Below the pieces are notes generated by a model. It saw only the letters and a list, made by a program, of their open reading frames with translations, was not told the DNA's origin and searched no databases. DNA of 64,000 bases from a virus: the IMG/VR virus record IMGVR_UViG_3300020470_005894, positions 1-64,000 of that record; one strand, written 5' to 3'. The position numbers and the translations under genes were made by a program. Positions within the stretch are counted from its first letter, which is position 1, and every line of letters starts with the position of its first letter. Of the stretch, positions 8,418 through 45,988 are shown piece after piece.

Positions 8418-9988
8418 TTGTTCACCTCCAATATTGCGTTACTTGTTGTTAAAAGTGTAGATGACACTGAAACTGCATTCTGCAACGCGACAACAGTTAC
8501 TTTCGCAGGATCAATTATTCCCTCGCTAAGCATCTCCACCAACGTACCTTTTTTAAAGTCCCAGCCGCTTCCATCGTCTTCGCTTCTAACAATATCATTT
8601 ATAATAAGATCAGCGCTGTCACCTGAATTTAGTGCCATCTGTCTTATGGGCGCTTCTAGAGATTTGCGTATAATATTTGCTCCGATATCTTGGTCTTCGT
8701 TATCGGGCTCTATTTTAAAATCTCGGCATTTAAGCAAAGTCGTGCCACCACCAGAAACAATGCCTGATTCTTGTGCGGAGTTAACAGCCTCCAAGGCATC
8801 CTCAATCCTGTGCTTTTTCTCTATCATTTCTATCTCAGTTGTACCGCCAACTTTGATTACTGCTATACCACTAGAAAGCCGGCTAATTCTACTTTGAATT
8901 TTAGCACACTCCTCGATGTCATCGGTCTGTTTTATTTCGCTCTTAAGAGAGTCAATCTTGGCATCGATTTTTTCCCAGTCAGCCAAGCCACCCATAATAG
9001 TTGTGTGGTTTTTAAGCACTTCAATCTTCTTGGCGACACCAAAATCAGCCAACTGAGCATCCTCCAGCTGACGTCCTGATGCTCTAGAGAAAAAAGTTGC
9101 CCCAGTCGCCAGACACAAGTCTTTCATAGTGTTCGAGCGTTCTTCGCCATATCCTGGAGCCTTCACTGCGGCAATCTTCATATTCCCGCGAACTGTATTC
9201 ATAATAAGTGCCGCTAGAGCTTGGCCCTCGACTTGTTCGGCTACGATAACCAATGGCTTTGATTCCCTAGCAGCTAGCTCTAAGATTGGCATTATACTCT
9301 TAACGCTTTCAATTTTATAGTCAGTAACTAGCAAAATAAGATCTTCATATTCAATAGAGTTTTTCCTTTCATTAGTAACAAATGTTTGTGAGAAATAGCC
9401 TGAATTAAATCTAAACCCCTCAACCAAATCTAGACTAGTCTCAACTGACTTTGCAGCCTCAATCAAAATCGAGCCTTCATGGCCAGCTTTGTCAACTGCT
9501 GCAGAAATAAGCGCACCAATCTCAACATCTCCATTCGCTGAGACTGTTGCAACATGCTCGATATCCTGCAAAGTTTCTACCGGCTGTGCCATGTCCATGA
9601 TCTTGGTGACGACCTGCGCAACTGCTTTGTCCATGCCCTTTTTAATTTCAACGGGTGATGAACCAGCAACTAGATACTTTTGTGTATTTCTTAGTATGTC
9701 TCTCGCTAAGACCGTAGAGGTAGTTGTCCCATCGCCTGCGTTAACATTAGTCTGTGCAGCTGCTTGCTTTAAAATCTGTGCTGCTGTGTTCTCAACTGGA
9801 TCCTCAAAATCTGTAAAATTAGCCACAGTGACGCCATCTTTTGTTATTATGGGTCGCGCTCCATCTTTGTGGAGAATTACATTGCGTCCTTTCGGGCCTA
9901 ATGTAGCTGCCACGTTATCAGCCAACTTGTTCACACCGCTCATTATTTTTTGCTGCAGCTCTAAGCCATCAGCGTATATTTTCTGCAT
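8414..9988 (-). CDS. groEL: Chaperonin GroEL (phage-encoded Cpn60)
   Basis: 524 aa, close to bacterial GroEL (about 548), but without the C-terminal Gly-Gly-Met tail. ATP site residues are intact: GPKGRNVIL at 32-40 and GDGTTT at 85-90. The equatorial return segment GGTTEIEMIEKKHRIEDALE and SGIVSGGGTTLL are present. It should form an ATP-driven folding ring. Phage GroELs are known from jumbo Pseudomonas phages, and some are reported to act without GroES; this phage also has a GroES-like gene (22180-22446). A TATAAT sits at 10023-10018 with a weak -35. Ribosome site AGAGAGG. Confidence 0.97.
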   Translation of the reverse strand: MQKIYADGLELQQKIMSGVNKLADNVAATLGPKGRNVILHKDGARPIITKDGVTVANFTDFEDPVENTAAQILKQAAAQTNVNAGDGTTTSTVLARDILRNTQKYLVAGSSPVEIKKGMDKAVAQVVTKIMDMAQPVETLQDIEHVATVSANGDVEIGALISAAVDKAGHEGSILIEAAKSVETSLDLVEGFRFNSGYFSQTFVTNERKNSIEYEDLILLVTDYKIESVKSIMPILELAARESKPLVIVAEQVEGQALAALIMNTVRGNMKIAAVKAPGYGEERSNTMKDLCLATGATFFSRASGRQLEDAQLADFGVAKKIEVLKNHTTIMGGLADWEKIDAKIDSLKSEIKQTDDIEECAKIQSRISRLSSGIAVIKVGGTTEIEMIEKKHRIEDALEAVNSAQESGIVSGGGTTLLKCRDFKIEPDNEDQDIGANIIRKSLEAPIRQMALNSGDSADLIINDIVRSEDDGSGWDFKKGTLVEMLSEGIIDPAKVTVVALQNAVSVSSTLLTTSNAILEVNK

Positions 9989-10058
9989 ATATACCTCTCT
10001 GAATATACAGTAAAAACATTATAAATTAAATCAAGAACAAATTTAAATTTATTTTAAA

Positions 10059-11831: not shown

Positions 11832-11849
11832 GTAACCACCTCTATATAA

Positions 11850-12521
11850 TTAGAAAATAATATCTGCAATGCCCAATTTTACTGCTTCCTCAGCATCAAT
11901 ATAAACATTAGTTTTTCTATCAATCATTTTTTTAATTTGTTTTTCAGTCATGTTTGTTTCTTCGGCTAGCGCTTTTACATACATTTTCTGGGTAAACTTG
12001 GTCTCTGCAAACTCATTTTCAACATCAGCTATGTGACCGTGTGAACCAGCAACCACACCATGAATCATTACTCTGCAGTATTTTCCGATACGTCGCTCAC
12101 CCTTGGTGCCGGCAGCCAATAAAAGTACGCCAGCTGACATGACCTTGCCTATACCACAAGTATGAATAGGAGTTAAATCTCTCATGCCCCTGATTGTATC
12201 GTAAACCGCGAACATCTCAGTAGCTAACCCGCCATAAGTAGAAACAACAAAATCAATTGGCTCATAGGAGACTAAATATCCTTTTTCCTCGTCTTCAGGA
12301 TCAATTAAAGTTTCTTTTCTACCTGTCAAATGAAGCGCGTGAAGACCATAGATTGTTTCTGAACACTTCTCTTCTTCAATGCTGCCATAGACTCCGGTCA
12401 GGCGCAGTTCTGGCTTCTCTGGTAGGCTCAAAACAGACATTAAGTCAACCGCATCTTGCCCCTCTGATGCATCATCTTTCTCGCCTTCATCGTTAAAACG
12501 TCTTTTGTTGTATTTTTTCAT
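11850..12521 (-). CDS. clpP: ClpP-like serine protease
   Basis: 223 aa. Catalytic triad visible: Ser129 in GKVMSAG, His154 in RVMIHG, Asp201 in DRKTN, with AEEAVKLGIAD near the end as in ClpP. The first 35 residues are an extra polar tail. Start at the ATG at 12521 with AAAGGAG; the longer frame to 12560 runs through the terminator hairpin. A separate gp21-type prohead protease exists (60867-61502), so this one probably degrades or processes other proteins, perhaps with a host ClpX/ClpA. The helix and loops for binding those were not checked. Confidence 0.9.
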   Translation of the reverse strand: MKKYNKRRFNDEGEKDDASEGQDAVDLMSVLSLPEKPELRLTGVYGSIEEEKCSETIYGLHALHLTGRKETLIDPEDEEKGYLVSYEPIDFVVSTYGGLATEMFAVYDTIRGMRDLTPIHTCGIGKVMSAGVLLLAAGTKGERRIGKYCRVMIHGVVAGSHGHIADVENEFAETKFTQKMYVKALAEETNMTEKQIKKMIDRKTNVYIDAEEAVKLGIADIIF

Positions 12522-12549
12522 GCTAACTCCTTTAAATTTAATAAAAAAA

Positions 12550-12572
12550 AAGCAGGCCACAAGGACCTGCTT
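12550..12572 (-). terminator. Rho-independent terminator
   Basis: Minus strand AAGCAGG-(9 nt)-CCTGCTT followed by a run of T. It lies between the acidic 226-aa gene and clpP, which would therefore need its own promoter or readthrough. Confidence 0.8.
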
Positions 12573-12594
12573 AAAACAACTTTATATTACCTTA

Positions 12595-13275
12595 CTATTG
12601 CAATCGTCGCTTAGCGTTCAAAAGACGACGTGCAACGCGGCGTGTGACTTCAGAAACAATTTGCTTCTGCCTTCTCTCTGGGGAAAGCTTTCGCTCATAG
12701 AGTTGTATATTTGACTCTTCAAGTTCTTCTTCGTCACCAGCTGCAGCTTCTAAGCCGCCGAGATCACCACCACCAAGATCGCCACCTTCATCACCAGCCT
12801 CGTCGCCCATATCCATCATATCCATGTCCATGTCTTCGGCGCCGGCGTCATCTTCTTCGCCTTCTTCGCTCTCAACGTCAAGCTGAATAGCTGCAGCGGC
12901 TTCAGGGTCAAGCTCCTCAAGTCCAATCTTAAGGGCCTTAAGAGCGGTTACAGCGCTGGCCAAAGGCTCATCACCTTCATCGCCGCCCGCAGCATCCAAA
13001 TCTTCTCCGCCTTCTTCTTCGTCGCCTAGGCCAAGGTCATCTAGCTGCTCTTGCAATTGTTCTTCACTATAGATATCTTCTTCCATCTGGTTAACAATGC
13101 CGGCCAATTCAGGATCAACAGGCGCTGCAGCGGGCATACCAGCGTGAGCTGCACCCATTTCATCTAAAATTTCGTTTTCGTTTAGCTTTGTGATAAAACT
13201 ATCACTAAGTGCACTGATGTTCGCAAATTTCATCATTTTGCGAATTTGTTTTTCGTTTAATAGCTGCTTTTTCAT
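12595..13275 (-). CDS. Highly acidic phage protein, 226 aa
   Basis: N-terminus MKKQLLNEKQIRKMMKFANI is a basic helix. Residues about 60-190 are a low-complexity Asp/Glu/Gly/Ala/Met region (EDMDMDMMDMGDE). The last 30 residues are strongly basic (ERRQKQIVSEVTRRVARRLL). This basic-acidic-basic plan resembles scaffold or capsid-internal proteins, but I cannot name it. A terminator follows directly. Confidence 0.75.
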   Translation of the reverse strand: MKKQLLNEKQIRKMMKFANISALSDSFITKLNENEILDEMGAAHAGMPAAAPVDPELAGIVNQMEEDIYSEEQLQEQLDDLGLGDEEEGGEDLDAAGGDEGDEPLASAVTALKALKIGLEELDPEAAAAIQLDVESEEGEEDDAGAEDMDMDMMDMGDEAGDEGGDLGGGDLGGLEAAAGDEEELEESNIQLYERKLSPERRQKQIVSEVTRRVARRLLNAKRRLQ

Positions 13276-16368: not shown

Positions 16369-19300
16369 TTATCCTAGTAATTTAAATGTGTGTCGAATAG
16401 ACCTAGTGCTAAAACCCCACTCTTCACTATGCTGCAACTTAGCTGCATAAGGCCTGTTGATATAAATTTGATCATCATCTTTGATGCCCCAACATTTAAT
16501 CGCAGTGGTTGTTGATGTCTCATCAATTACTTTAACAATCCAGTATGGTTTGTCGTTTTTAGTTCTTTTTTGTATGACTTCTCTAGGGATGAACCAAGCA
16601 ACCCCGAGATCCTTATCCCAGTTTCCAAGAGCCGGAACACAATGACGATCGATAGATTCTCTTATTTGCCTAGTAAGCACAAGATCAAATGGAAACATTC
16701 CAGTTAGGTCCGAAACGTACTCGATCTTTTCCTCGCGAGTGAAGTCTTCCTCAGGCGAGTATAGCTTAATATTTTCCAGAAGCTTTTTCTCATTCTTTGG
16801 TTTGTCTTGAATACAAGCCATCCAAAAGTGCTTGCAGCCATTAAATCTCTCATCAATAATACAGTCCATCGCTCCGGAGCGACACAGCACATCCAAAGCT
16901 TTCTTGTTTAGTTTTGCATGAGTGATGCTTTCATTAAACAAGATATCTTCAATTTTCTCAAATGGTCTATTGGCCAAAATTTGATCGATTGCTTTATCAC
17001 CTAGGCCCTTAATAGAACTAAAAGGTTGGATCAAAGTTACACCGTCGTCGCCAATCTCCCAGTGGCGATTAGAGGTGTTGATATTGATGCTCTCAATGTA
17101 AAAGCCCATCTTCTGTGCGATCGCAATTGCAGCTTCTTTCTTAGATTCTGGCTCTTTGTCTAAAAAGGCAGCAGTCCAGCACTCTGGGAAATAATTTAAG
17201 AGCCAAGCACATTGGTATGATAAGATAGAATAAGAAACAGCATGAGACTTATTAAAGCCATATCCAGAAAAATATTCAAACTTTTGCCATAGGTCCTCTG
17301 CGTCTTTCTTATCCATCCGCTTGCCAACGCAACCCTTGATGAATCTATCTCTAATACTAGTCTTTTCTTCATTACCTTTCCCTGTTCCTTTCTTTGTAAG
17401 GAGCTTTCTTAGTTTGTTTCCCTCCTCCAGAGTAATGCTATCACCCAGCTTGTGCGCCAATAATGCAATCTGCTCTTGGAAAATAAGAAAACCGTAAGTT
17501 TCTTTAGTTACTTCCTCGATAATATCGTTATGATAAAAAGTATCTCCGCTTCTTTTCGCTTTTACATAAAGTTTATCAACACCCGCACTTAGTGGGCCTG
17601 GACGATAAATAGATGTAATCGCAGAAATATCAATAATATCTGTTGGTTTTGATTTTATGCTAAGCTTTTGAGCACCAGTGTTAGTGAACTGAAAGACACC
17701 TGCAAATTTACCTTTGTGAAAGATGTTCTTGTAAACCTTTTGATCATTCAAATCAATATTGTCAGGATGTAATGTCTTATCGTAATAATCTTTAATATCT
17801 GCAAATGTTGGGTTTTCAACACCAAAATGTCTCTTGAGAACATGTCCAATGGCAGATTCTATCATCTCAAGCGTTGAGAGACCCAAGAGATCAAACTTGA
17901 TGTGCCCAAGCGGCTCTAGATGGCGCACATTCTGACCTTCTGACCATGGAGTCTGAACGACACCGCGAGAACAAATCAGTGGCATATGTCTGTCTAAATC
18001 TTCGCCGATTACAACGCCACCAGCATGACGACTAGTAGAGCGTACTTGCCCAACTAGCGCTTGAACGTGTGTTTTGACATCTGGGTACTTTTCCAAAAAT
18101 GAAATAAGAGACTCTGAATATTTCATAACTTCTTCAAAGTTTGGCGTGTACATACCAGCTCGAATTCCACGATCTGCCTTTGCTTTTGGAGTCGCCTCAC
18201 GAACCATCCTGCTAGTGACGGCGTTAACCTCCTTGAAGGGGATATCATAAAGCTTACTGATATCTTTGATAAGAGAGCGCAGCTGTAATGTATTGAAGTT
18301 TGAGATAGGCACAACTGTAGTCTCGCCCCATTCCTCTGCTAGAATCTCCTTGAGACCAAAGGCATCGCTGACATCATAATCAATATCTGGATAATCAGTT
18401 GCATCTGATCGCAGAAAACGACTGAATAGAAGTCCATATTTAATCGGATCAACCTGAGTAATCCCGAGCACGTAAGCCACTAGTGAGCCAGCAGCAGAGC
18501 CGCGCCCTGGACCAGCAAGCATATACTTGCTAGCAGTATCGCTAATTGCCTTCATGGTAAGGAAATATTTTGCAAACCCACGCTCGTTGATAACAGTCAG
18601 CTCATGCTTCAGACGATCAATATACTCTTGGTTGTTCTCAAAACCAAACTTGCGTAAACCGCCAATAGATTCTTTGATCAGCGTCTCAGCCGCCGAGGCG
18701 CCTTCAGGCACAACAAAGCCAGGTAAGCGAACTGTGTCGTCGGGCATAAAATCTTCAATGCGATTATTAGCGATCCAATGTGTTTTCACAATAGAATCGT
18801 AAATTAGGTCATCATCATAAACAAACTCACATTCCTCAGAATATTTTTTGTAAGCAGCCCACATCTGATCGCCATTCTTTGGGTAGAGTTCCATCCCCAT
18901 CTCATCAACTTCAATTGGAAGTTCCGTCTTGGCCCACTCAGGGAGTTTCGAGCCCAACCAGCCTAGGCGCTTGTAAAGCTCGCGATCCTTCCAGGCCTCC
19001 GGGCTAGGATAGTGACTGTCAGCTGTTGAGATAAGTTCAATTCCAAATTCTTCGTGCATTTGGATAACATACTGATTGAGCTTGTGCTGGTTAGGTACGT
19101 TATTCCATTGAAGTTCACCGTACCAACGATCGCCCAACACCTCCATCATGCGCTTGGTTGTTTCGCGCATAGCATTAAGGATAGCTTCTTCGCCATCTTC
19201 TTGATTGTCCCAAAAGTTTCTAGCATAGACTCCGCCTAGGCATGCCGAAGAGGCGATGATACCCTCCCCATGCTCTTCAAGCATCTTGTAATCTAGACGA

Positions 19301-19794
19301 GGCTTAGTGTAAAAGTTATCGCCTCGATGAGAATCAGAAACAATCTTGAAGATATTGTTAAGCCCAGTTTGGTTTATTGCAACTAAAACAATATGTGCCT
19401 TGTTGTTGACTTTTTCCTTAGTCTTGCTTTTCGAAGCGCTTTCGTCTTCAAAAGAAACTTTATTTGAATCATCAATAATCTTTCTTGCTTTTTTCTTATC
19501 TGCTTTAATTCTTTCATATTCCTCCTTCCACTCCTTGATAGAAGGCACAAAATAAGCTTCAACGCCGAAAATAGGCTTAAAGTCTTTGCCTTGTTCTTTC
19601 ATCTTTTTGGCATGCAGGACTTGATAAGACATGCCATTCATATTTCCGTGATCAGTGAGCGCTAAGGCGCCCATGCCATTCTTGTACGCAAAATCCATGT
19701 GGTCTTGCGGATAGCCAAACCCATCAAAAACTGAACCAGCAACACTATGTGCGTGCAATCCCACAAATGGGATTTTAGATATATTTCTTTCCAA
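16369..19794 (-). CDS. dnaE: DNA polymerase III alpha subunit (family C)
   Basis: 1141 aa, nearly the length of E. coli DnaE. Order seen: PHP domain with HAHS at 14-17 and LTDHGN; palm with GPGRGSAAGS near 428 and the catalytic PDIDYD near 468; FDLLGL third Asp region; NKSHAVSYSILSYQ; helix-hairpin-helix region with IKGLGDKAIDQIL; a short OB-type C-terminus. It should be the main replicative polymerase. The start is a TTG at 19794 after AGAGGA, as no ATG fits. Family C enzymes are rare in T4-like phages, and this genome also has a family A enzyme. Confidence 0.97.
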   Translation of the reverse strand: MERNISKIPFVGLHAHSVAGSVFDGFGYPQDHMDFAYKNGMGALALTDHGNMNGMSYQVLHAKKMKEQGKDFKPIFGVEAYFVPSIKEWKEEYERIKADKKKARKIIDDSNKVSFEDESASKSKTKEKVNNKAHIVLVAINQTGLNNIFKIVSDSHRGDNFYTKPRLDYKMLEEHGEGIIASSACLGGVYARNFWDNQEDGEEAILNAMRETTKRMMEVLGDRWYGELQWNNVPNQHKLNQYVIQMHEEFGIELISTADSHYPSPEAWKDRELYKRLGWLGSKLPEWAKTELPIEVDEMGMELYPKNGDQMWAAYKKYSEECEFVYDDDLIYDSIVKTHWIANNRIEDFMPDDTVRLPGFVVPEGASAAETLIKESIGGLRKFGFENNQEYIDRLKHELTVINERGFAKYFLTMKAISDTASKYMLAGPGRGSAAGSLVAYVLGITQVDPIKYGLLFSRFLRSDATDYPDIDYDVSDAFGLKEILAEEWGETTVVPISNFNTLQLRSLIKDISKLYDIPFKEVNAVTSRMVREATPKAKADRGIRAGMYTPNFEEVMKYSESLISFLEKYPDVKTHVQALVGQVRSTSRHAGGVVIGEDLDRHMPLICSRGVVQTPWSEGQNVRHLEPLGHIKFDLLGLSTLEMIESAIGHVLKRHFGVENPTFADIKDYYDKTLHPDNIDLNDQKVYKNIFHKGKFAGVFQFTNTGAQKLSIKSKPTDIIDISAITSIYRPGPLSAGVDKLYVKAKRSGDTFYHNDIIEEVTKETYGFLIFQEQIALLAHKLGDSITLEEGNKLRKLLTKKGTGKGNEEKTSIRDRFIKGCVGKRMDKKDAEDLWQKFEYFSGYGFNKSHAVSYSILSYQCAWLLNYFPECWTAAFLDKEPESKKEAAIAIAQKMGFYIESININTSNRHWEIGDDGVTLIQPFSSIKGLGDKAIDQILANRPFEKIEDILFNESITHAKLNKKALDVLCRSGAMDCIIDERFNGCKHFWMACIQDKPKNEKKLLENIKLYSPEEDFTREEKIEYVSDLTGMFPFDLVLTRQIRESIDRHCVPALGNWDKDLGVAWFIPREVIQKRTKNDKPYWIVKVIDETSTTTAIKCWGIKDDDQIYINRPYAAKLQHSEEWGFSTRSIRHTFKLLG

Positions 19795-22752: not shown

Positions 22753-24604
22753 TTATTTCGCATGATCCACCTGAACAAGCCAACTCTCCAGACAAATTTG
22801 TTCCATCCTCAAGTTCAATAACTTTGCTAAGATCAACCTCCTGTAGCGACTCTAAGAGAACTTGGAATTTCTCGCGAGAACAATCTTCGAAAGGAGGTTG
22901 TTTGTAGGTGTGCTCAGAGAAGGGCAGGACTGATAAACCATTGTAAAAGTTTCTGTTTTCCCACATCCAATCTCCAACATCCGCCCATTCGGAATCCTTA
23001 ATAGAGATAGTAGCTGACACATTGTGGCTGTTTTGACCCCTGCCATGGCCAGTGTTAACCCACTCGCTAGTAACAGTCTTAACTCTCCTAAGCAATTGTA
23101 AGGCGCTCTCTGATCTCGTTATAGCACCCTCTGGGGCTTTTTGTGGCACTGAAATAACTGCAGTGTCGTGCGGCCTAAAATACTCATCCTCTAAAAGCTC
23201 GGGGTGGTGGATGGCTAGATGAGTGTAAATAGACTCATTTTTGCCAACTCGCAGACGTCGTATATAGTGCTCATTATGCCACGCGTGAATACCACTGGAG
23301 GTACCAAGAGTTAAAGAAGTAGTGCCAGCCGGCTTTACACAAGTAGTTCTGGCTGCTGGCTTAATTCCTATCAGCGAGGCCACGCGCTTGTTTTCTTTGC
23401 GTACGATAGAAGCTGCAGACTTCATATCTAAGCTCAGCACACCACCGGAAGCAATTCCCGTCATAGAGACTCCTACCAAAGCATCCTTCTCTGTAGTGCG
23501 ACGCCAAACATCTCTAAGATAGTGAAAATCTGTATAGCCAGCTTGCAGGGTTCCTATAAAAGCAGCTGCCTTTGCCCTTAGGTTGTACTCCTCTTGTGTG
23601 CTTAAATCAGAAACATTGATTTCAGTTAAATTACAAAACTGATACGGCCTTAGCGCGATCTCACAACAAGGATTTGTGCCCCAGTCCTTATCGTTGGAAA
23701 GATAAAAACCTGGCTCACCAGATCCTGACTCTTTAATTCGTTCCCATATCTCCATAAAGAAATCACGAGTCATCAAGTGCCTCATTAAGACGACTGAATT
23801 ATTGGCTCTTCCTCGCTGTGGATTTGTCTCCCACCAGCTTCCTGTTTTTGCTGCGAGCATTTCTTCATCGTCCGCGGAAAAAAGTGAAATAAGAGCAGCC
23901 CTACGGATCCCCCCGGCAAGAACAGCATCAGCAATATGACAAATGATATCATGTACTTCGATAGGTTCAAGTTTATCTCCATTCTCTTTTTCGTCAAAAA
24001 TGCCCTGTACTTTTAGCAAGCATTCTTTTAGCGGCTGAGGGCCGGGAGCTTTACCTCCACTTGTAACTAGTCTGCTGCCCTTCAGACGGATGTCAGAAAA
24101 ATCAAATTTTATTTTTGAGCCACCTTTAAAGTAAGAATGAATTAAAACTTTTATTGAATCGGCCCATCCTTCGATCGAATCTCCGATAAGAAATCTGCGA
24201 GATCTTTTTGAATTTGGCTTCTGAATTTCTGGGAGCTTATCAACATGATGCCTTTGGACGCTGAATCCAACACCAGTGCCACCGAGAAGGAGAAACATGC
24301 ACTCAGAAAAAGAAGCGACATTATCGATAGGCATATAAGCACAGTTGTATATCCTGTTAGGTGCCACTTCAATCGGCTTGCCGCCGAATTGCATGGATCG
24401 CATTGATGGTAAGACTTTTCTTTCATAGACATAATTATACGCTTCCTCGATTTCGTTCCTTAAATCGGGATATTTCTTAATATGCATATTTTTGTTTCTA
24501 GTGACTAGTTCATCCCAAGTTTCTCTCCTTTCTAGCTCTGGGATGTACCTAGAGTATTTCATGTGTACTGTAATATCTGATAAAATTTTATTCTGTAACT
24601 CCAA
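22748..24604 (-). CDS. nrdJ: Class II (adenosylcobalamin-dependent) ribonucleotide reductase
   Basis: 618 aa. Reduces ribonucleotides to deoxyribonucleotides with B12 instead of a metal-tyrosyl subunit. Visible: PSMRSMQFGG near 67, NCAYMPIDN, the active site NPCCEI at 311-316 with the thiyl Cys, the CNLTEINVSDL strand, and the C-terminal redox pair CSGGSC at 610-615. Length and lack of an NrdB gene fit the monomeric triphosphate reductase type. Start is a TTG at 24604 with AGGAGG 8 nt before it; the frame is open further. Needs host or scavenged B12. Confidence 0.93.
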   Translation of the reverse strand: MELQNKILSDITVHMKYSRYIPELERRETWDELVTRNKNMHIKKYPDLRNEIEEAYNYVYERKVLPSMRSMQFGGKPIEVAPNRIYNCAYMPIDNVASFSECMFLLLGGTGVGFSVQRHHVDKLPEIQKPNSKRSRRFLIGDSIEGWADSIKVLIHSYFKGGSKIKFDFSDIRLKGSRLVTSGGKAPGPQPLKECLLKVQGIFDEKENGDKLEPIEVHDIICHIADAVLAGGIRRAALISLFSADDEEMLAAKTGSWWETNPQRGRANNSVVLMRHLMTRDFFMEIWERIKESGSGEPGFYLSNDKDWGTNPCCEIALRPYQFCNLTEINVSDLSTQEEYNLRAKAAAFIGTLQAGYTDFHYLRDVWRRTTEKDALVGVSMTGIASGGVLSLDMKSAASIVRKENKRVASLIGIKPAARTTCVKPAGTTSLTLGTSSGIHAWHNEHYIRRLRVGKNESIYTHLAIHHPELLEDEYFRPHDTAVISVPQKAPEGAITRSESALQLLRRVKTVTSEWVNTGHGRGQNSHNVSATISIKDSEWADVGDWMWENRNFYNGLSVLPFSEHTYKQPPFEDCSREKFQVLLESLQEVDLSKVIELEDGTNLSGELACSGGSCEII

Positions 24605-25985
24605 TGCTTTTTCCTCCTGAATTTTTTTGATTTTTTGCAATTCTAAATTGTTTATACTTATCTCTAAGCGCAGTTGCTAACTCGTTGGGCGCCATGGCAG
24701 GAGAAACAACTGGTGTATCAACTTTTGCTAAAACTTTAATATTAACGTTGCTGGTGTCCATAAAGATAGGAAAAACAAGCCCATCGGGCCCATTTCTATT
24801 TTTTGCAATAAACATTCTACCTGTATTAGCATTCTTATCTTTAATGGTTCTAGAAATAGAACAAATAAAGTCAGATACAAAGCACTTGTTAAAAGCTTCT
24901 GAAATAGATTCCATAGTTACAACTTCTGCGTTCAATCCTGTTCTGTTCGTCTGTGATGCCGTCCATAATGGGCATTTGTATTCTTGAGCTATAGCTCTTA
25001 AGTTTTCATAAATAGACTCTAATTCATTACGTTTCTCTTTAAAATTACTGACCGGCCTAAGCAAATCAGCGTAATCTACTAAAATCATATCGATTTTATG
25101 ATTTTTATTTTTTAATTTTTCTAAGTGCGACCTTAGCGTATTGGTAGAAGCTGTTTTAGTTGGGTATTCTTTAATCACCAAAGAGCCCTCAACCTCACTG
25201 ATCAATTCTAGAACTTCATCTTTTTGATGAAAAAGTGTATTCAGTGGTACACCACTGATGCAGCTATCATATCTTTGGCCTGTTACAGCCTCTGAAAGCT
25301 CCAGTGTATAGTGCACTACGTTTTTTCCAGCCTTAACAGCTTGTGAGCCTAAATGAGCTAATACCATTGATTTTCCAGCTCCAGTCGGAGCAATTACAAC
25401 GCCAAGCTCACCTGAGCCTAGACCTTTCTTCATTAAAGAATCTACCTTTTCCCAACCTGTTGAGACCGGGTTTCTAGCTTTAATTTCATAGCGCAATTCA
25501 AAATCCCTAATAAAATCGTGTCCAAAGTTATTATCATTTCCTAGATTTAAGGCAACGTCAATCACTTGTCGCACCTCATCGTATGAGGAATTTTGTATCA
25601 AATCAACAGAAGTCATAAGTGCTTCTTTAAGTTTTTGTTTCTTGCAAAAATCTAAACTAGTCTCTTTGATATATTGTCCATCTTGTACCGTCTTGACGCA
25701 AATTCTGGCAAAATAGTCTCTTACCTGTTTTTTTGCTGAATCATTTAAGTTTTCAAGTTCCGTCCTCAATATTGAGGCTAGAATCTTCTTTGTAGGATGC
25801 ACACCATATTTTCTACGATAATCATATATTCTAGATACAAAAATGCGAAGATAGCTCAACTCGAAAAACTGAGTGTCTATTACCTCTTCAATCTGATCTG
25901 CGAAAGGACGATCTTCTAGAATCATCTGCGCCAAAGTCTCTTGAAACTGCTTTCCATACTTAGAAAAGCTTAGCTCTTTAGTCAT
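24588..25985 (-). CDS. Replicative DNA helicase (DnaB / T4 gp41-like)
   Basis: 465 aa RecA-fold helicase. Walker A APTGAGKS at 199-206, Walker B DMILVDYA at 299-306, then QTNRTGLNAE (motif H4 type) and a final arginine region FIAKNRNG. The first 150 residues form an all-helical N-terminal domain as in gp41. It should unwind DNA 5'-3' ahead of DnaE. No separate DnaG-type primase is seen in the window. Start at the ATG at 25985 after GGAGGAG. Overlaps RNR by 17 nt. Confidence 0.93.
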   Translation of the reverse strand: MTKELSFSKYGKQFQETLAQMILEDRPFADQIEEVIDTQFFELSYLRIFVSRIYDYRRKYGVHPTKKILASILRTELENLNDSAKKQVRDYFARICVKTVQDGQYIKETSLDFCKKQKLKEALMTSVDLIQNSSYDEVRQVIDVALNLGNDNNFGHDFIRDFELRYEIKARNPVSTGWEKVDSLMKKGLGSGELGVVIAPTGAGKSMVLAHLGSQAVKAGKNVVHYTLELSEAVTGQRYDSCISGVPLNTLFHQKDEVLELISEVEGSLVIKEYPTKTASTNTLRSHLEKLKNKNHKIDMILVDYADLLRPVSNFKEKRNELESIYENLRAIAQEYKCPLWTASQTNRTGLNAEVVTMESISEAFNKCFVSDFICSISRTIKDKNANTGRMFIAKNRNGPDGLVFPIFMDTSNVNIKVLAKVDTPVVSPAMAPNELATALRDKYKQFRIAKNQKNSGGKSIGVTE

Positions 25986-26016
25986 ATTCTCCTCCAATAA
26001 ACATATTAGCTACATT

Positions 26017-26991
26017 CTAGCGATTGTCTATAGAAATTCTGTTTAAGTGCTGAAAAAGTTCAATGAAATTAATTTCTCCAAATCCATCTTTTAACATCAT
26101 CTTAATTAACTCGGTCTTATTAAAGCTCAAGTCAGGGTTCTCAATTGTCTCACGAATTGTTTTCTTCATAGCGGGATCTAAAATTGGTGCATAAAGTTGC
26201 ATCATCTTATAATTCCTTCTTAAAGTTTCTTCGTTCTCTAAAACTTTCTGATAAGCTTTCACACTTGATTGTTCTAAAGAATCTCTGCAGTGTCCTAAAA
26301 GCTCGTCAAAAGTAACTGATTTTTTTTGTTTTAGAAAGGGGAAGCGCTTAGCAATTGTCTTTAGGCCTAGGCCTTCAATCCCCTCAATGTTGTCTGATTT
26401 GTCACCCTCCATGGCTCTTGCCATGGCAAAATTTGCGGGATGGATATTAAACTTATTCAAAATTTTGTTTTCGTTTAAAACCTCTTTTTGAATTGGTCTA
26501 TACTGTACGGTTTTAGTGCCTAAGAGCTGAAAGAAGTCTTTGTCACTTGACACAATTAGTTTTTCTGCATTTTCAAGTGATTTAAGCTGTGTAACATAAG
26601 CGATTATATCATCTGCTTCTGTGCTTTTAAACATCAATTGAATTATAGGGACTTGATTATAATATTCAATCAGACGTGATTGTTGCCAGATTTTGTTCTC
26701 AATCTCCTGGGATTCTGACATGTTTCTAATGCCTCGGTTTAATCGAATCGGCTTTCTGCCGTCTTTATAATCCTTTTTCATTAGCTTGCGCTTAGCAGAG
26801 CCACCCTCGCCGTCCCAGCAAACAATAATTAAATCTGGCTTTGACTCTCTGCATATTTTTTGAATGCTCTGAAAGCAACCCTTAAGGCCACCGATCGGTG
26901 CACCATTCGCTGACAAGCTAGGATTAACTATGTAATTACGAAAAAAAAGGTTCAATTGATCAATAATTAAAACTCTCTTACCATCATACAT
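26017..26991 (-). CDS. 5'-3' exonuclease (flap nuclease family)
   Basis: 324 aa of the PIN-like nuclease family that includes the Pol I N-terminal domain and T4 RNase H. Metal residues visible: [12 protein letters not shown] with Asp11, [18 protein letters not shown], and [10 protein letters not shown]. The helix-3-turn-helix [14 protein letters not shown] follows. It should remove RNA primers. It complements the family A polymerase, which lacks this domain and is encoded 5 kb upstream. Overlaps gmd by 8 nt. Confidence 0.93.
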
Positions 26992-28798: not shown

Positions 28799-29911
28799 CT
28801 ATTCCTCTTGATCAATATCATAAAAATCTTCTGCCCGTCCTTGCTTGCTGTCAAAACGCATGATAATGTCTTCATCCATTACTTCAAGCACTCTATCCTT
28901 GAACTTATCGTCTTTTAATTTGTCTAGCCATTTGGCAGCTTGAAATTTTTCCTCTCTTCCGTCCTTGTATACAAGGCTGTACCAAGCGCCTGATTGTTTA
29001 AGGTTGTCAGAGCCCTTAATTGCCTCAAGCCAGCTTTCTTCGTCCTTAATACCGACATCACCACCCCAAAGAATCTTAAACGTACACTGTCGTCCTTCAG
29101 TGCCAAACCTGCTTTTCTTGAGAGTTACTTTAACTTCTGAGCCAACTCTAAAGCCGTTATCATCTACAATAAAGCTAGCCTTAGCCTTCCTCTTTGTAAG
29201 CCATATTCGCAGCGAATAAGCATAGTGCATTGCTTTGCCGCCCGGAGTTACGTAGGGAGTTGTCATAGCTTCTGCTACATTGCTAGTGATATTAGTTTTT
29301 AATTGATTGAGCACTAAAAATGTCGATTTCGAAGCAGCGATAGGCACTGTCAGTTTAGACATGCCTTTAGCTAAAATTCGCGGCTTGACAGCCATTGAAG
29401 ATTGTGGGTTGAAATCTCCCTCTACATCACTGACTGAAGGTGTCAAGGCAAGAGAATCCCAGATAAATAACATCCTGTTGTCGTTAGATCCTAATAGCTC
29501 CTCAATGGTTTCCAACACATACTCAACACTAGTTGGCTGCAAATAAAGAATGTTGTCGACATCACAACCAGCACTAGCTAAAAAATCAGGATCGATAGCT
29601 GATTCTGCGTCAAAGTATACTACATCAATACCCATTTTTTGAGCGTTTGCAGCAATTTGCGCGGCCATAAAAGACTTTCCCGAACCCTCAAGGCCGGCAA
29701 TTTCAACAACCTTGCCGACTGGTATTCCTGCTAGCTTTCCTCTACAAATAACACTGTCAAGCCACCTTGATCCAGTTGGAATCCAATCTTTTACCTGTGT
29801 CGGATTTTCTTTGGTCAGGTCAAAAGCTACTTCCATACCAGCTTTTTTATTGATGAGATTTCTCATCTCGCCAATGCTTAATCTTCCTAATTTTCTTGAT
29901 TTTTTAGCCAT
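28799..29911 (-). CDS. uvsX: Recombinase RecA / UvsX
   Basis: 370 aa. Walker A GLEGSGKS at 73-80, DAESAIDPDFL, LFIWDSLAL as Walker B, and LVLNQLKTNI as the L2 DNA-binding region, then GGKAMHYAYSLRIWL. It should drive strand exchange and recombination-dependent replication. Features are between bacterial RecA and T4 UvsX. The C-terminus is acidic (GRAEDFYDIDQEE). Overlaps the membrane protein gene upstream by 25 nt; SSB is two genes upstream. Confidence 0.95.
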   Translation of the reverse strand: MAKKSRKLGRLSIGEMRNLINKKAGMEVAFDLTKENPTQVKDWIPTGSRWLDSVICRGKLAGIPVGKVVEIAGLEGSGKSFMAAQIAANAQKMGIDVVYFDAESAIDPDFLASAGCDVDNILYLQPTSVEYVLETIEELLGSNDNRMLFIWDSLALTPSVSDVEGDFNPQSSMAVKPRILAKGMSKLTVPIAASKSTFLVLNQLKTNITSNVAEAMTTPYVTPGGKAMHYAYSLRIWLTKRKAKASFIVDDNGFRVGSEVKVTLKKSRFGTEGRQCTFKILWGGDVGIKDEESWLEAIKGSDNLKQSGAWYSLVYKDGREEKFQAAKWLDKLKDDKFKDRVLEVMDEDIIMRFDSKQGRAEDFYDIDQEE

Positions 29912-30254: not shown

Positions 30255-30998
30255 TTAGCTAAGCAATTCAGCGAAAGCTTGGTCGACAGCACTACCATCA
30301 GTTGTACCATTATACTTGGATGATTCGTTTGACACGCTCTCGGCATCACTCTCCGAGAGCAGGAACTCATCAAGCATTGCTTGCACCTGCTCAGGCGTCT
30401 TGCGTTCAAAAACCTCATCAAAGTTAGGAATTTGGTCCAAGAAAGTAGCTACCTCGTCTTGACTCTTCATCATTGGAGATGGCTTACGACGCGGTGTGAT
30501 AGTCGTCTGTGGAAACTGCGCTCCAGCTGGCTTACCATAATTAATTGTAAGATCTGTCCCTTCAGCAACATCGGTGATATCACCATACTCGGGATTTAGT
30601 ACTAGATTCAATAGCTCCTTATAGGCAGTCTTTCCAAAGCCCCATAGACGTACGCCCTTCTCTTCTTCTCCACGAACAAGAACTGGAGCGAAGAAGCGTT
30701 GACGAGCGGAAAGATCCTTTGCCATCTTGATGGACTCATCTGTACCATCCTTATAAAGTTGACGGACAAAGTCGTTCAACGGATCATCTTCACCAAAATT
30801 TTTCTTTGGACTAAGAAAACCAGCGTTCTTGCCTAGGTTGTAATGAAACCAGTATTCCTTAAATGGATCACCGTCAGGAGTTGGTACGATACGAATCGTC
30901 TGCTCTCCGTCCTCAGGGCGCCAAAAAACACTCTGTCCATTCCCGCGATTTTCCAAGGCATCGCGCTTTGCCTTCATCTTTGCTAAATCAATACCCAT
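30255..30998 (-). CDS. Single-stranded DNA-binding protein (T4 gp32-like)
   Basis: 247 aa. N-terminal basic segment, then an OB-fold core with FWRPEDGEQTIRIVPTPDGD and KEYWFHYNLG, VRLWGFGKTAYKELL near 125 and an acidic Asp/Glu/Ser C-terminal tail as in gp32. The zinc cysteines of gp32 are absent. It coats single-stranded DNA at forks and helps UvsX. Own leader with hairpin and AAGGAG ribosome site; terminator after it. Confidence 0.88.
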   Translation of the reverse strand: MGIDLAKMKAKRDALENRGNGQSVFWRPEDGEQTIRIVPTPDGDPFKEYWFHYNLGKNAGFLSPKKNFGEDDPLNDFVRQLYKDGTDESIKMAKDLSARQRFFAPVLVRGEEEKGVRLWGFGKTAYKELLNLVLNPEYGDITDVAEGTDLTINYGKPAGAQFPQTTITPRRKPSPMMKSQDEVATFLDQIPNFDEVFERKTPEQVQAMLDEFLLSESDAESVSNESSKYNGTTDGSAVDQAFAELLS

Positions 30999-31033
30999 TG
31001 TATTTTCTCCTTTTTGCTTTTAGCTATAGTACA

Positions 31034-31051
31034 GTCGGCCAATCTCCCGAC
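31034..31051 (-). promoter_or_regulatory. Hairpin in the SSB leader
   Basis: GTCGG/CCGAC stem with an 8-nt loop, about 35 nt before the ATG at 30998. T4 gp32 represses its own translation by binding a leader structure, so an autoregulatory site is possible. Short stem, tentative. Confidence 0.3.
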
Positions 31052-31095
31052 CGTCTGTTAATAGAATAAAAACCGTCTTTAATAAGTAAAATAAT

Positions 31096-31929
31096 TTATT
31101 CTACTTTTTGTTCTTGAATAAAAGACGCATGCTGCACGGTATATACGTAATCGTGCTCATAAGTTGTAGAATAAATGGCAAAGCCAGCGTCGTTCTTATC
31201 TGAAGAAGCTTCTTTTACAAAAGACCTTATCTTATGTAAGATATTCTTATCTTCTTCAAGTGTTTTTTCGTTTATACCATAAAAATAATTTTTTGTACGC
31301 GCAAATTTTAAATCATAAAAAAGCTTTTCACTGCCAGTTTCGTAGTTTACAACGCCAAAAGTTGAAATTCTAGCAGTTTCTGGCTCCTTAGAGACAGATG
31401 TCAATAGCGGCTCATTGTTTTCAAAAACATTGATCATATTATACGTGCTTGAAATAACATTGTTGATGTCTTTCCAGTAGTCTTTAATTGATATATTTTC
31501 CACTATTTCTTCTACTAAATTATTTGAAACCACATACATCTTCTTCAACAACGCAGATCTGGCGTAGTTTTGCAAAATATTAAATGTAACATTACATTTA
31601 AGCTTCTCTTCGTTAGACATTTGACTAATATCAGGCTTTATAAACAAAACGGTTGTAGGTTCGCTTTTAATTTGTTCAAGGAGACGCAGAGCGCACCCAC
31701 TTATGTTTCCGCTACCACACATTATGAGAGTTGTGTCTCCCTTACATTTTGATAAACTTAACTTTTTATAGTTTTTTTCATAATCTTCATGAGAATTTTG
31801 ATACTTAACCGGCAGAAATGTATCATACCCCTTGTTTTCTGTGTCAACACAAAAAACCTTATATTGTTCATAATTTTTAAAATTATTAGCTATTTGACAG
31901 CCAGCGTTTCCTAATCCTATAATATTCAT
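31096..31929 (-). CDS. Divergent FtsZ/tubulin-like protein, 277 aa
   Basis: Several segments align by eye with FtsZ in order: IIGLGNAGCQIANNF at 3-17 (FtsZ GVGGGGxNAVN), VFCVDTE at 25-31 (AVNTD), MCGSGNISGCALRLLEQI at 70-87 in the place of the GGGTGTG loop, TVLFIKPD at 93-100 (VVTKPF), and VVSNNLVEEIV at 133-143 (IPNDxLLEI). The T7-loop acidic residues are not obvious, so GTP hydrolysis may be weak or lost. At 277 aa it lacks the long C-terminal tail. ATGA overlap with the polymerase gene. Alternative: an unrelated Rossmann-type protein. Confidence 0.65.
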   Translation of the reverse strand: MNIIGLGNAGCQIANNFKNYEQYKVFCVDTENKGYDTFLPVKYQNSHEDYEKNYKKLSLSKCKGDTTLIMCGSGNISGCALRLLEQIKSEPTTVLFIKPDISQMSNEEKLKCNVTFNILQNYARSALLKKMYVVSNNLVEEIVENISIKDYWKDINNVISSTYNMINVFENNEPLLTSVSKEPETARISTFGVVNYETGSEKLFYDLKFARTKNYFYGINEKTLEEDKNILHKIRSFVKEASSDKNDAGFAIYSTTYEHDYVYTVQHASFIQEQKVE

Positions 31930-33104
31930 TTAACTTCCCTCATAACACCAAAATTCTTTCCTATTCGTAAATTTGTTTTAATTTTGCCCAGCTTTGTATC
32001 TCCAAACTGCTGTAAGATCTCTTCAACTAGTGGTCGATCTTCCAGAGAATAATCAAGCACTAGGCTATCGTGCACACAAAAAGAAACAGTCGATTTTCTA
32101 TCTGATAGAATTTTATTAATTTTCATTGCTGAGTGTAAAAACATATCGCTAGCAGTGCTTTGCACAAGGTAATTAACTGCCTTATCCCTACCAACATCAA
32201 TATTGCGCCCAAAAGGCGTATGAACGGCGTTATTGAGATAGTATTTTTCATATAGGCGGTCGCGATCTAAAAATTGATTTAACTTTTTATTTTTAGCTTG
32301 GGGGTTATAAAGCCATGCAAATACTTTTTTCTTTGCTTGTTCGCGAGTATACTTCCCAGCAAAAATATTTTCAGAAATCCACTGATGAATATCTTCAGCG
32401 GGCTGGTCTTGTCCCAAAAGATAAAATAGAACTCTGATCTCTGCAGCATTGTAGTCCAACTCAATAAAACAGTCATTTGTAGGCTTAATTGCTCTTCTAA
32501 GGCTCTTGTTGAGAGTAAGAATAGGAAAACTATTTTTATTTGTAGTCAAACGACCTGTCACTGTACCAAAGGCGTTATAACTAATAAAAGGCGGTGAGCT
32601 TTTTATTTTTTGTACAACTTTCCTTACCGCACTTTCCGACATGTCTAGATTGTGTAAATCTATATTTAATTTTTGTTTCTCAAGGACCTTTAAGAAAATT
32701 ATTAAATCATACAAAAAATCATGATTTTCAGGTTTTTTTTCCTCTTTAAATACATGTTCAGTAATCTGATTTTTTACTTCAAAAAACTCCAGTAAAAACC
32801 AATCAGGCATTAAATCATAAAAACATATATCTTGTAAATTAATTTTACTTTTTTGGAATGAATTTAGAAAAGCAGATGCCTTTTTGTTTAAGGCCAGCCA
32901 ATATGGCTTCAAGTCCTCTGGGCAACAATCATCTAGTGTTTTGCCCATAGACCATATAATGCCACAATCGTAACGCTCATTGGCAAAATTAGATGCAGGA
33001 AACCAAGTTCGTGTTAAATTTAAATCCTCGCTAGCTTCTTTAATTTCACCGTCGACATACACACTGGTACATTGATTTTTATTATCAAGAACTTGAAAAA
33101 GCAA
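31926..33104 (-). CDS. Family A DNA polymerase, polymerase domain only
   Basis: 392 aa. TGRLTTNK at 183-190, motif A DYNAAEIR at 217-224, motif B as R254-x3-K258-x7-Y266 followed by Asn where Gly is usual, and motif C VHDS at 344-347 with Ser instead of the usual catalytic Glu. No 5'-3' or clear 3'-5' exonuclease domain, and the 5'-3' nuclease is a separate gene. It may finish primer gaps after DnaE, or be catalytically altered. TTG start after GAGGAAAAA. Confidence 0.9.
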   Translation of the reverse strand: MLFQVLDNKNQCTSVYVDGEIKEASEDLNLTRTWFPASNFANERYDCGIIWSMGKTLDDCCPEDLKPYWLALNKKASAFLNSFQKSKINLQDICFYDLMPDWFLLEFFEVKNQITEHVFKEEKKPENHDFLYDLIIFLKVLEKQKLNIDLHNLDMSESAVRKVVQKIKSSPPFISYNAFGTVTGRLTTNKNSFPILTLNKSLRRAIKPTNDCFIELDYNAAEIRVLFYLLGQDQPAEDIHQWISENIFAGKYTREQAKKKVFAWLYNPQAKNKKLNQFLDRDRLYEKYYLNNAVHTPFGRNIDVGRDKAVNYLVQSTASDMFLHSAMKINKILSDRKSTVSFCVHDSLVLDYSLEDRPLVEEILQQFGDTKLGKIKTNLRIGKNFGVMREVK

Positions 33105-42542: not shown

Positions 42543-45500
42543 TTAATCGTCAAAAGAAGCCCCGCTTCTCGTGATAATAAAGTCAAGTGCAATAAACTCA
42601 ATTGCTCTTGCAGGCTTGAGGAAGATCTTCGCATACATAATATTTCTATCCACCAAATCAGGGGTGGTTGTATCTTCATCTAGCACAACCTTAAAGTCTG
42701 TCAAACCTAAGCCAGCTTGCACGCCTTCCAGGAAAGGCACAACTTGTCCAGTAAATCTATCCCAAGTTTGCTGTACATTTTGATCAAAAAGAACTCTAGA
42801 AGCGATTCTTGAGATTTCTTTCTTTAAGAAGATTAGCAATCTTCGTACGTTAATTCGATCAAGCGCTGACTGAGTAACTTGTAGCGTCTTCTGGCCAAAA
42901 ATAACGATTCCTTCAGCGGGGAAAGAGGCAATTGGGTTGATGTTAGCATCGTAGAGTGTATCTCTATCAGCTGAAGTTATCCTCTCTCTAACACCGATCA
43001 CTGGAAGACCAGCTGAGCCCTCGCTAAGTCCGCCGCGTGTAAAGCCAGCTGGTGCAAACCAGACAGCCGATTTACGCTGTGAGCTTGAGAAAGTGCCTAG
43101 TGCAACAACAGAAGGCGGTACGTAAAGTACAGAATCATTAATGGTGTCTCTAATTCTAACAAACGGGTAGAAAGTACAGCCGTAGCTTGAATTAATATTT
43201 AAACCTTGTAGGTTTGTAACCACACTTGAAACTGAGCCAGCTTTTGCAGCATCAGTCGGTAGTAAAGCATGCTCATGAGGCGGCTCATAGTTGCCCTCTA
43301 GGTCAATAACTGCCATGGCATCGCCTCGTTCTTCACAATTCTCAACCATTGCAACGTTGAGTGTCGAGTTGGTAACACCAGGTATGGCTGAAACATCATA
43401 TTCGATAAATTCCTTATCAGAAGCTATGTCTAAGGCCTTTTTAATACTGTAGAAAGCATAATTTGATTTTTCTGATCCACCACTCAAAACTCTGTTTGCT
43501 AGCGGATCTTGCTCAGTAATATCAAATCCATCGAATCCACCAAACATTGGAGATGTAAATTTGTTAAATCCTTTGTCTAAAATTCCGCTCACCGAACCAG
43601 ACTTGGAAGTCCAAGACTGCTGATTAGCTCTAGAACCGGATATCCAAAGTGAGTGATCAGCATCAGATAAAGATTCAGAGACATCGTCTAAAGTAAATAC
43701 CCAAGACCATTGGCTCTCCGCGGAAACAATTGCATGTGGATCATGGCCTGCAGGTGAAGACCTCAAAAGATCTAAATTCGTCTCATCAAAGCGCTTGGTA
43801 TCTTTGATACTGGGCTGATAGCCAAAGTATGCTTTTGTTGGTAATACCAATGAACCCTCGGAAGAAGAAACTCGCAACCTAGCAGTTGGAAATTCAAAGC
43901 TAGCTGTGATATGGTCCTGTGTGTATACCATGGTGCCGGCTACCCAATCCTGTAAGCTTTGGCCACTTCCAGTCAGAAGCGCAGTTGGCAATGATCCGCT
44001 GCCTAATGCATAAGGTGAGTCAGTTTGAGACCCACTGGCTAGGCTCCATGTTTTTGGTACGGACGGGCCGTATACACCAAATGGATGAAGGCCTCTTGCT
44101 TCGCCTGAGTCAACAACAGGCGAAGTTTCAACTCTTATGTATTTTGATCTATTCTCATACTCGCCTAAATCAGTTATAGTTTTGTTCGTAGTGTTGTAGC
44201 CGTAATTTCGATCACCAATTAATCGTTTAATAAAGTTAGCAGATTTTGGATTTAAGTTAACATTTGAAAAACGCTCCAAAATCTCTGGACGGTTATCATT
44301 GTCAGAAGCCTTACGAACAACAATGCTAAAGTTACCATAATCATTAAAGTTATCAGTTGGTGCTTTAATAGCCTCAATGGAGACTTTCACGTCTCTGTTC
44401 GAAGATGCGCCGCAGCCAGGATCTTGAGTTGCCCCAGCCCCGCCCAAAGCATGAAGCTTGAACAATCTCTCAGTGTGCTGTGTTGGGTCGAAACCTGCGT
44501 AAGTGTCGCCTCGTGTGTCCTGTGATATAAACCAGCCAGTTGCCGCAGCCCGGGCATTCTGGCGCCGATCGTGCCAATTTAAATTAGAATCACTGTAGGT
44601 TCCAGCAGAAGGTGAATTTAACTGCAATATTACACCCAGCATATTTGTTTTTTGTGGTGACGATCCAGTAACTTTTAATTTGGGATTTTCTGAATCGAAA
44701 AGAGCAGATTCGTAGGTCTCGCCTAGCCAATATTTTTCTACAGTCGTCCCACCGCCAGTGTATACAACCTCACTATTAGTCTTTGTTGGATCAGTGTTAA
44801 AGACGCGTCTTGCAAAAAGCTTAGAGTCTCTGTTAAAATTAAAAGTAGTCGTTTTGAGTTCATTCTCGGTAGCACCTATAACTTTTGCCGTAAACTGCGG
44901 CCCAGACGTTGCTGTGCCAGAGCTTTTAATCAAAACACCTGCACCCTGTCGAGCAGCTCCGTCCCTAGCTGTACCGGTAAGCACTACGCCGCCATTTTGC
45001 ACATACCAAACAGCAGCCAATGTACCTGTTACAGGATAATGTGCTCCGCCGTAAAGAACATTGCTAGCACCAGGAGCACCGGTGCCCATTGTAACTTGAA
45101 TGTCATTTCCGACCGGGCCCGTAGTTGTTGCAGTTAGCTTAACTTGAGTGCTGCTAAGAAGTGATGCGGTGACACCGGCGATACCTGTATTGACTCCAGA
45201 GTTTGCTGCAGCAAAGTTGTGCTTGTATTGCCCGTTGCCCGTTCCAAAGTTACCGTTGATAGCGTCGACAACCGTTTCTGCAACGGTGCCAGCAGAGGGA
45301 GTAGAGCTTACTCCAACAGCTATAACTGTAGAAGTCGTCGATGAAGCGCCTGTCGCGTCCGCACCAGTTAACCTAACTGTCATTGCAGTTCCAGAGCCTC
45401 CAGCATTGCTAGGCACCAGCACCGTAAAATCGTCACTAGCGCCGTAGCCGGAAAATTGAATTGTGCCGGCTAATGTAGAGGCAGCGGTACTACCATAAGC

Positions 45501-45938
45501 GTCTGGATCAGGCATGACAAATAAGCCATATGCTCCGCCGGCTGACTTGAGCGCGGTATTTGGGGTGTTGTCTGTTATCCATCCAGCTAAACCAGGAGCA
45601 GTTGAGCTAGCATCAGAGGGATTTTGGCCCAATACGCGGTATACTGTACAAGGGGAGTTATTTCTCAACCAAGCTTGCACCGCATATGCTGCGTATGTAG
45701 GCGCTGTTAGAGCACCATGCCTCCATACTTCAGTCGCTGGGCTACCGTCTGATGGGTTTCCAAAGATTGAGACAAATTCACGAAAAGAATTGACCCGTAC
45801 AGGCCTGTGGGCTGGTCCTTTTTCAAAGCGCCCAATCACTAAAGGCCCCATACGCTCTGGAAGTGCTGGAATGCCTGATTCATCTATCTCATCAATAAAA
45901 ATACCGGGCGATACAAACTTAAATTTATCTACTGACAT
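42543..45938 (-). CDS. Tail sheath protein (gp18-like), unusually long
   Basis: 1131 aa against about 660 in T4. The N-terminus (FVSPGIFIDEIDES, GPLVIGRFEKGPA) and the C-terminal domain (IVIFGQKTLQ, INVRRLLIFLKKEI, KIFLKPARAIEFI) are the standard sheath core. The extra length is in the middle, about residues 120-800, with Gly/Ser/Thr-rich beta domains probably facing outwards. Contracts to drive the tube. Start at 45938 (MSVDKF) after AGGAG; a TTG at 45953 is rejected. Late-type element 50 nt upstream. Confidence 0.95.
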   Translation of the reverse strand: MSVDKFKFVSPGIFIDEIDESGIPALPERMGPLVIGRFEKGPAHRPVRVNSFREFVSIFGNPSDGSPATEVWRHGALTAPTYAAYAVQAWLRNNSPCTVYRVLGQNPSDASSTAPGLAGWITDNTPNTALKSAGGAYGLFVMPDPDAYGSTAASTLAGTIQFSGYGASDDFTVLVPSNAGGSGTAMTVRLTGADATGASSTTSTVIAVGVSSTPSAGTVAETVVDAINGNFGTGNGQYKHNFAAANSGVNTGIAGVTASLLSSTQVKLTATTTGPVGNDIQVTMGTGAPGASNVLYGGAHYPVTGTLAAVWYVQNGGVVLTGTARDGAARQGAGVLIKSSGTATSGPQFTAKVIGATENELKTTTFNFNRDSKLFARRVFNTDPTKTNSEVVYTGGGTTVEKYWLGETYESALFDSENPKLKVTGSSPQKTNMLGVILQLNSPSAGTYSDSNLNWHDRRQNARAAATGWFISQDTRGDTYAGFDPTQHTERLFKLHALGGAGATQDPGCGASSNRDVKVSIEAIKAPTDNFNDYGNFSIVVRKASDNDNRPEILERFSNVNLNPKSANFIKRLIGDRNYGYNTTNKTITDLGEYENRSKYIRVETSPVVDSGEARGLHPFGVYGPSVPKTWSLASGSQTDSPYALGSGSLPTALLTGSGQSLQDWVAGTMVYTQDHITASFEFPTARLRVSSSEGSLVLPTKAYFGYQPSIKDTKRFDETNLDLLRSSPAGHDPHAIVSAESQWSWVFTLDDVSESLSDADHSLWISGSRANQQSWTSKSGSVSGILDKGFNKFTSPMFGGFDGFDITEQDPLANRVLSGGSEKSNYAFYSIKKALDIASDKEFIEYDVSAIPGVTNSTLNVAMVENCEERGDAMAVIDLEGNYEPPHEHALLPTDAAKAGSVSSVVTNLQGLNINSSYGCTFYPFVRIRDTINDSVLYVPPSVVALGTFSSSQRKSAVWFAPAGFTRGGLSEGSAGLPVIGVRERITSADRDTLYDANINPIASFPAEGIVIFGQKTLQVTQSALDRINVRRLLIFLKKEISRIASRVLFDQNVQQTWDRFTGQVVPFLEGVQAGLGLTDFKVVLDEDTTTPDLVDRNIMYAKIFLKPARAIEFIALDFIITRSGASFDD

Positions 45939-45988
45939 GTCATTGCTCCTCAATTAGACAGTTCTTAAAAATATACGAACTTTTTCTT

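Follow-up and report, generated by a model that had tools for sequence, protein, structure and literature searches.

The window analysed here is a stretch of 64,000 nucleotides at the start of a virus record of 93,914 bases (IMG/VR IMGVR_UViG_3300020470_005894). Present once in that record is an open reading frame, here called tub, which begins with ATG and encodes a protein of 277 residues with a predicted tubulin/FtsZ fold. It is preceded by polA, whose end overlaps it by four bases (ATGA), and followed by a gene for a gp32-like single-strand DNA binding protein and then by uvsX/recA (Table 1).

Table 1. Features of the tub locus and of its replication module, in window coordinates
Feature	Position	Strand	Basis
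tub, 277-aa protein of predicted tubulin/FtsZ fold, without T7 motif and, in the prediction, without H8/H9	31096..31929	minus	ORF, family, AlphaFold2 model, Foldseek
T1 nucleotide loop MNIIGLGNAGC, residues 1-11	31897..31929	minus	G5, G7, G10 invariant
T4-loop equivalent GSGNISG in place of GGGTGTG, residues 72-78	31696..31716	minus	family pattern
Region after H7, expected site of T7 NxDxxD/E, residues 171-180	31390..31419	minus	motif search and model
polA, 392-aa family A DNA polymerase	31926..33104	minus	PF00476 (DNA_pol_A) 5.4e-15
gp32 leader with covarying hairpin, separate from tub	30999..31095	minus	
gp32-like single-strand DNA binding protein (SSB)	30255..30998	minus	PF08804 2.1e-12, phrog_1192 2.9e-26
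UvsX/RecA recombinase, same module	28799..29911	minus	PF00154 2.6e-37, phrog_97
Separate 5'-3' exonuclease, same module	26017..26991	minus	PF02739 4.8e-25
DnaB-like replicative helicase	24588..25997	minus	phrog_19 9.5e-75
DnaE/Pol III alpha, likely replicase	16369..19794	minus	PF07733 1.2e-51, PF17657, PHP

The major capsid protein matches those of the Far-T4 relatives immuto, Mel-JY01 and Rhodothermus RM378. The phage is Far-T4-like by these matches, a refinement of the plain T4-like assignment in an earlier note on this DNA. DnaE is encoded in the window and in nine of 11 long relatives, and no PolB was found in 12 records. PolA had been considered as the replicase, an idea dropped once DnaE was found; because the replicase is DnaE/Pol III alpha, we regard PolA as an accessory polymerase. 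No exonuclease domain was recognised in its 392 residues. The polymerase motifs are kept, namely the Asp of motif A, R-K-F-Y of motif B and His-Asp of motif C; R, K, Y and the Asp/His residues are invariant wherever aligned, and F of motif B is present in 115/118. An AlphaFold2 model of PolA has a pLDDT of 91.7, and Foldseek matches it to Pol I, apPOL and KlenTaq.

Three features of the phage lie outside the question of tub. The hairpin of the gp32 leader, just upstream of gp32, has ten pairs and is kept in 13 phages, with five pairs changed on both sides and the pairing preserved. It is followed by a conserved TACTATAGCTAAAAGC and then by the ribosome site. No Rfam family matches it over the family's cut-off, and the leader is possibly autoregulatory. 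The phage also carries its own GroEL-like chaperonin (window 8414-9988; phrog_5725, 6.6e-135) and an unusually long tail sheath protein of 1136 aa (window 42543-45953), in which the sheath match is limited to residues 587-1134.

No tubulin match to Tub was returned by Pfam, PHROGs or NCBIfam, or by phmmer and hmmsearch against the PDB, and the Pfam Tubulin profile found nothing in the virus record. The earlier note had proposed a divergent FtsZ/tubulin-like protein on the strength of five segments, GLGNAG, VDTE, GSGNISG, TVLFIKPD and VSNNLVEEIV, all of which are present in the ORF, and had named structure prediction and HMM-HMM comparison as checks. Structure prediction bears the proposal out. 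AlphaFold2, run on a 51-sequence alignment, gave a model with a mean pLDDT of 94.1 and a pTM of 0.91, for which Foldseek returned 546 PDB matches at E <= 0.001, the best 50 of them all FtsZ or TubZ. The best match (E 8.8e-14, TM-score about 0.67) covers the whole chain, and the N- and C-terminal tubulin domains are both full in the model. Among viral models the best match is an annotated FtsZ from an uncultured Caudovirales phage (A0A6J5RW92; E 2.1e-13, TMq 0.76). Tub is predicted, on this model, to have the two-domain tubulin/FtsZ fold along its whole chain. The HMM-HMM comparison gave a more qualified answer. When seven profiles or sequences were compared with Tub by hhalign, FtsZ came first, with 159 columns and an E of 4.6e-4 for the deeper alignment pair, and the register holds at T1, T4 and T6/H7. 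Against a 17-sequence FtsZ profile E was 0.013, and against a single FtsZ or PhuZ the comparison was not significant. FtsZ is therefore the top profile, but profile evidence by itself is suggestive of kinship with FtsZ, not decisive.

The 51-sequence alignment has 18 invariant columns. At T1 the pattern G-x-G-x-A-G is kept across the family, G5, G7 and G10 being found in 95/95 sequences and A9 and C11 in 91. N136 and N156 are present in 94/95 and Y151 in 93/95, at positions that hhalign pairs with T6 and H7 of FtsZ. We presume that the two Asn residues contact guanine, an inference from the alignment for which there is no bound structure. Both are gone in two members of the family (L122 and L125), which have V and Y there and in which nucleotide binding may perhaps be lost. 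The remaining signatures depart from FtsZ. The T4 loop is changed, as had been claimed: GGGTxTG occurs in 0/94 members, and the family pattern is G-x-G-x-[IV]-[ST]-G. The T7 acids, described in the earlier note only as not clear, prove to be missing family-wide, with NxDxxD/E after H7 in 1/94 members, a chance match, versus 31/31 FtsZ controls. An acid at position 173 is not fixed either (E in 65, D in 8 and K in 8 of 95, with others besides). In the model, H7 (residues 151-170) is followed by a loop, a strand at 188-194, further strands and then the next helix, and no helix lies between H7 and the next strand. Set against the FtsZ topology of general knowledge, helices H8 and H9 are predicted to be missing, a judgement made from the order of elements in the model and without residue-by-residue superposition.

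Tub can be set beside each tubulin relative we considered. It shares with FtsZ the whole-chain fold, the T1 pattern G-x-G-x-x-G, Asn at T6 and H7, and the hhalign register from T1 to H7. It differs in having neither GGGTGTG nor the T7 NxDxxD/E, in the modelled absence of H8/H9, in its lack of a C-terminal tail, in its length of 277 aa and in going unrecognised by sequence families. With the defining motifs of T4 and T7 both unmet, Tub is not FtsZ proper, as far as primary structure can tell. An FtsZ homologue has been reported in an uncultured circular phage contig (PMC7452251), and the FtsZ of other uncultured phages, such as A0A6J5RW92, includes the best viral structural match to Tub. In 79 viral-contig loci of phage FtsZ (L243-L321), however, GGGTGTG is present in 79/79 and T7 in 76/79, unlike Tub, and the polA, gp32 and uvsX neighbours of the tub family are absent. 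Most of these FtsZ-like proteins share about 50% identity with E. coli FtsZ across some 300 aa. PhuZ of the phiKZ-like jumbo phages is likewise phage-encoded, of tubulin fold and about 300 aa long. Tub is not PhuZ: it has no match to phrog_4733 at E <= 1, whereas phiKZ PhuZ as a control matches at 4.6e-118, hhalign between the two covers just 28 columns, and Tub belongs to a different phage group, is encoded beside PolA and gp32 and has no T7 motif. TubZ, of type III partition (TubZRC), is matched in fold (4ei7, E 1.7e-12). The neighbours of tub, however, are PolA and gp32 of a replication module; no TubR-type adjacent DNA-binding partner was identified, and no TubZRC-like iteron or repeat array was found in 30.1-33.3 kb of the window.

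Successive IMG/VR scans, by protein and then by alignment, gave 13, then 235, then at least 595 confirmed relatives of tub. The gene is under purifying selection, with a median dN/dS of 0.11 over 125 related pairs. The relatives, the invariant columns, this selection and a gene order shared by 134 loci mark tub as a genuine gene and no accident of sequence. Queries with three different family members found no match in cultured phages among 50,697 deposited phage records, and a scan of 84,980 species genomes gave one match, in a WOR-3 MAG. There (L086, about 7505-12864) orf436-polA-tub-gp32-RecA forms a short block between bacterial genes, with a RecA of only 277 aa, and is either what remains of an integrated phage or a chimera made in assembly. 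Being short, of phage type and surrounded by bacterial genes, this one match was not taken as evidence of a cellular tub family. The gene is thus very common in uncultured Far-T4 marine phages, yet unannotated.

The order orf436-polA-tub-gp32-uvsX is found in 134 loci selected by tub, wherever the contigs reach, and the commonest spacing of polA and tub is a four-base overlap, seen in 59 loci. In one subclade (L053, L062, L080, L110 and others) the two genes are separated by a further ORF of about 103 aa. It starts KLVRDxIPEII and by eye resembles a MazG/PRA-PH nucleotide pyrophosphohydrolase; it has no match in Pfam or NCBIfam. Because the 134 loci had been chosen by tub, we added two PolA scans blind to it. 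The scan with PolA of the window type found tub in 79/80 loci, and the contig of the exception ends 463 bases past polA, so that tub lies next door in 79/79 assessable loci. The other scan used PolA of the type found in immuto, Mel-JY01 and LR756508, and the motif DxDAFH was present in all 83 loci that it gave. None of these 83 has tub, including 0/56 with gp32 in reach. Flavobacterium phage immuto and Microcystis phage Mel-JY01 resemble the window phage in having PolA, then gp32, then RecA, and the immuto module continues with a 5'-3' exonuclease, DnaB and RNR; they differ in the DxDAFH type of their PolA and in having no tubulin gene between PolA and gp32. In this other Far-T4 PolA (L138, L139, L140, L322-L401) the usual Glu of motif A is His, and the catalytic Asp residues remain. 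The association of tub with PolA type has a Fisher p of about 2e-39, an overstated figure in which related sequences are treated as independent. The split between PolA types possibly marks two phage clades, and the association may then be partly phylogenetic.

Tree distances point the same way. Across 44 taxa those of tub and polA correlate at 0.83, and with gp32, uvsX and orf436 removed a partial correlation of 0.65 remains (permutation p 0.001). The partial correlation with tub is -0.04 for gp32, 0.06 for orf436 and 0.25 for uvsX. Linkage alone is insufficient to explain the correlation with polA, because gp32 is equally near tub. Linked genes can nonetheless recombine together, and coevolution of Tub and PolA is no proof of contact. 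The coupling to a family A polymerase proposed in the earlier note has thus come out stronger than it was claimed to be.

Taken together, our results are best explained if Tub is a non-hydrolysing, nucleotide-binding accessory or scaffold of PolA, of tubulin fold, in gap filling or repair. We hold this most likely reading tentatively. The ORF, its family, the missing motifs, the gene order, the exclusive link to one PolA type and the residual coevolution are observed in the sequences, and the fold is predicted; that Tub binds nucleotide, does not hydrolyse it, touches PolA physically and has a role in replication or repair is all inferred, without an experiment. Classical tubulins hydrolyse the nucleotide of a neighbouring subunit through the T7 acids and H8. 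Tub would bind nucleotide, probably GTP, through its conserved T1-T6 loops but, without T7 acids and H8, would not complete the active site of a neighbour in the classical way. Since both are lacking, Tub is probably not a classical dynamic filament. It would instead act in a nucleotide-dependent manner on the small, exonuclease-less PolA encoded just before it, and the two might fill gaps, mature Okazaki fragments or carry out repair, together with gp32, UvsX, the separate 5'-3' exonuclease and the DnaE replicase. A bolder form, in which the fold has become a dedicated nucleotide-gated polymerase subunit and the minimal PolA depends on a non-polymerising relative of tubulin, is possible but rather unlikely in our estimation.

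Tub might still polymerise, perhaps as a static GTP-bound filament, and position or gather replicating DNA in the manner of PhuZ or TubZ. Full N- and C-terminal domains, nucleotide loops that are kept and a place in the replication module would all suit such a phage cytoskeleton. We find it rather doubtful: the missing T7 motif and the H8 absent from the model are the builders of the classical longitudinal contact, the PhuZ family of PHROGs is unmatched, the 30.1-33.3 kb region holds no iteron-like array, and tub is single-copy in the record.

The tie to PolA could also reflect only ancestry and tight linkage, if tub is a core gene handed down within one Far-T4 clade and does something unconnected with PolA. 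The coincidence of its presence and absence with two PolA types, perhaps two clades, is what one would then see, and the small ORF that separates polA from tub in one subclade fits as well. However, gp32 and orf436 are equally linked and show no residual correlation with tub, whereas polA does, and the four-base overlap is the commonest arrangement; we consider descent alone an unlikely account.

Less likely again is a decoy or cap for host FtsZ, in which the nucleotide face of Tub would dock on the T7 face of FtsZ and block division, leaving the cell as one factory. Retention of the top (nucleotide) face with loss of the bottom face is what a capping subunit should show, and there are known examples of phage proteins directed at FtsZ, such as T7 Gp0.4 (PMC13423816). 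A decoy aimed at the host would not be expected to keep strictly to one PolA type or to coevolve with PolA beyond background, though; the location in a replication operon fits poorly, and the hosts of these phages are unknown. That Tub is no tubulin at all, merely a Rossmann-type dehydrogenase-like protein resembling FtsZ at the first loop, is hardly credible. Weak Pfam matches at that loop (3HCDH_N, 0.015; TrkA_N, 0.028) speak for it, but in hhalign two Rossmann families (E 0.002-0.005) align only with the first 31-32 residues, versus 159 for FtsZ, and the model matches FtsZ/TubZ from end to end, none of the best 50 of 546 matches being a dehydrogenase. The outcome named in the earlier note as refuting its proposal did not arise.

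Most of what is known of phage tubulins comes from jumbo phages that form a nucleus and from partition systems. The Far-T4 papers PMC4360716, PMC7198788 and PMC13037479 mention no tubulin or FtsZ, and we found no published report of the tub family in open-licence literature, the only literature covered. Tubulin-fold phage proteins are thus already known; Tub is one that lacks the catalytic motif by which tubulins are defined and whose gene is fixed next to that of a polymerase, which suggests that phages have taken over the tubulin fold for replicating or repairing their DNA. A family of this fold, hundreds strong and unannotated, that is fixed in the replication module of widespread uncultured marine Far-T4 phages and bound to a single polymerase type would show the fold working without that motif. 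PolA offers a concrete, testable partner, and those Far-T4 phages that carry the other PolA and lack tub form a natural comparison group. If Tub is indeed a polymerase subunit, the tubulin fold would be in use outside the cytoskeleton and cell division.
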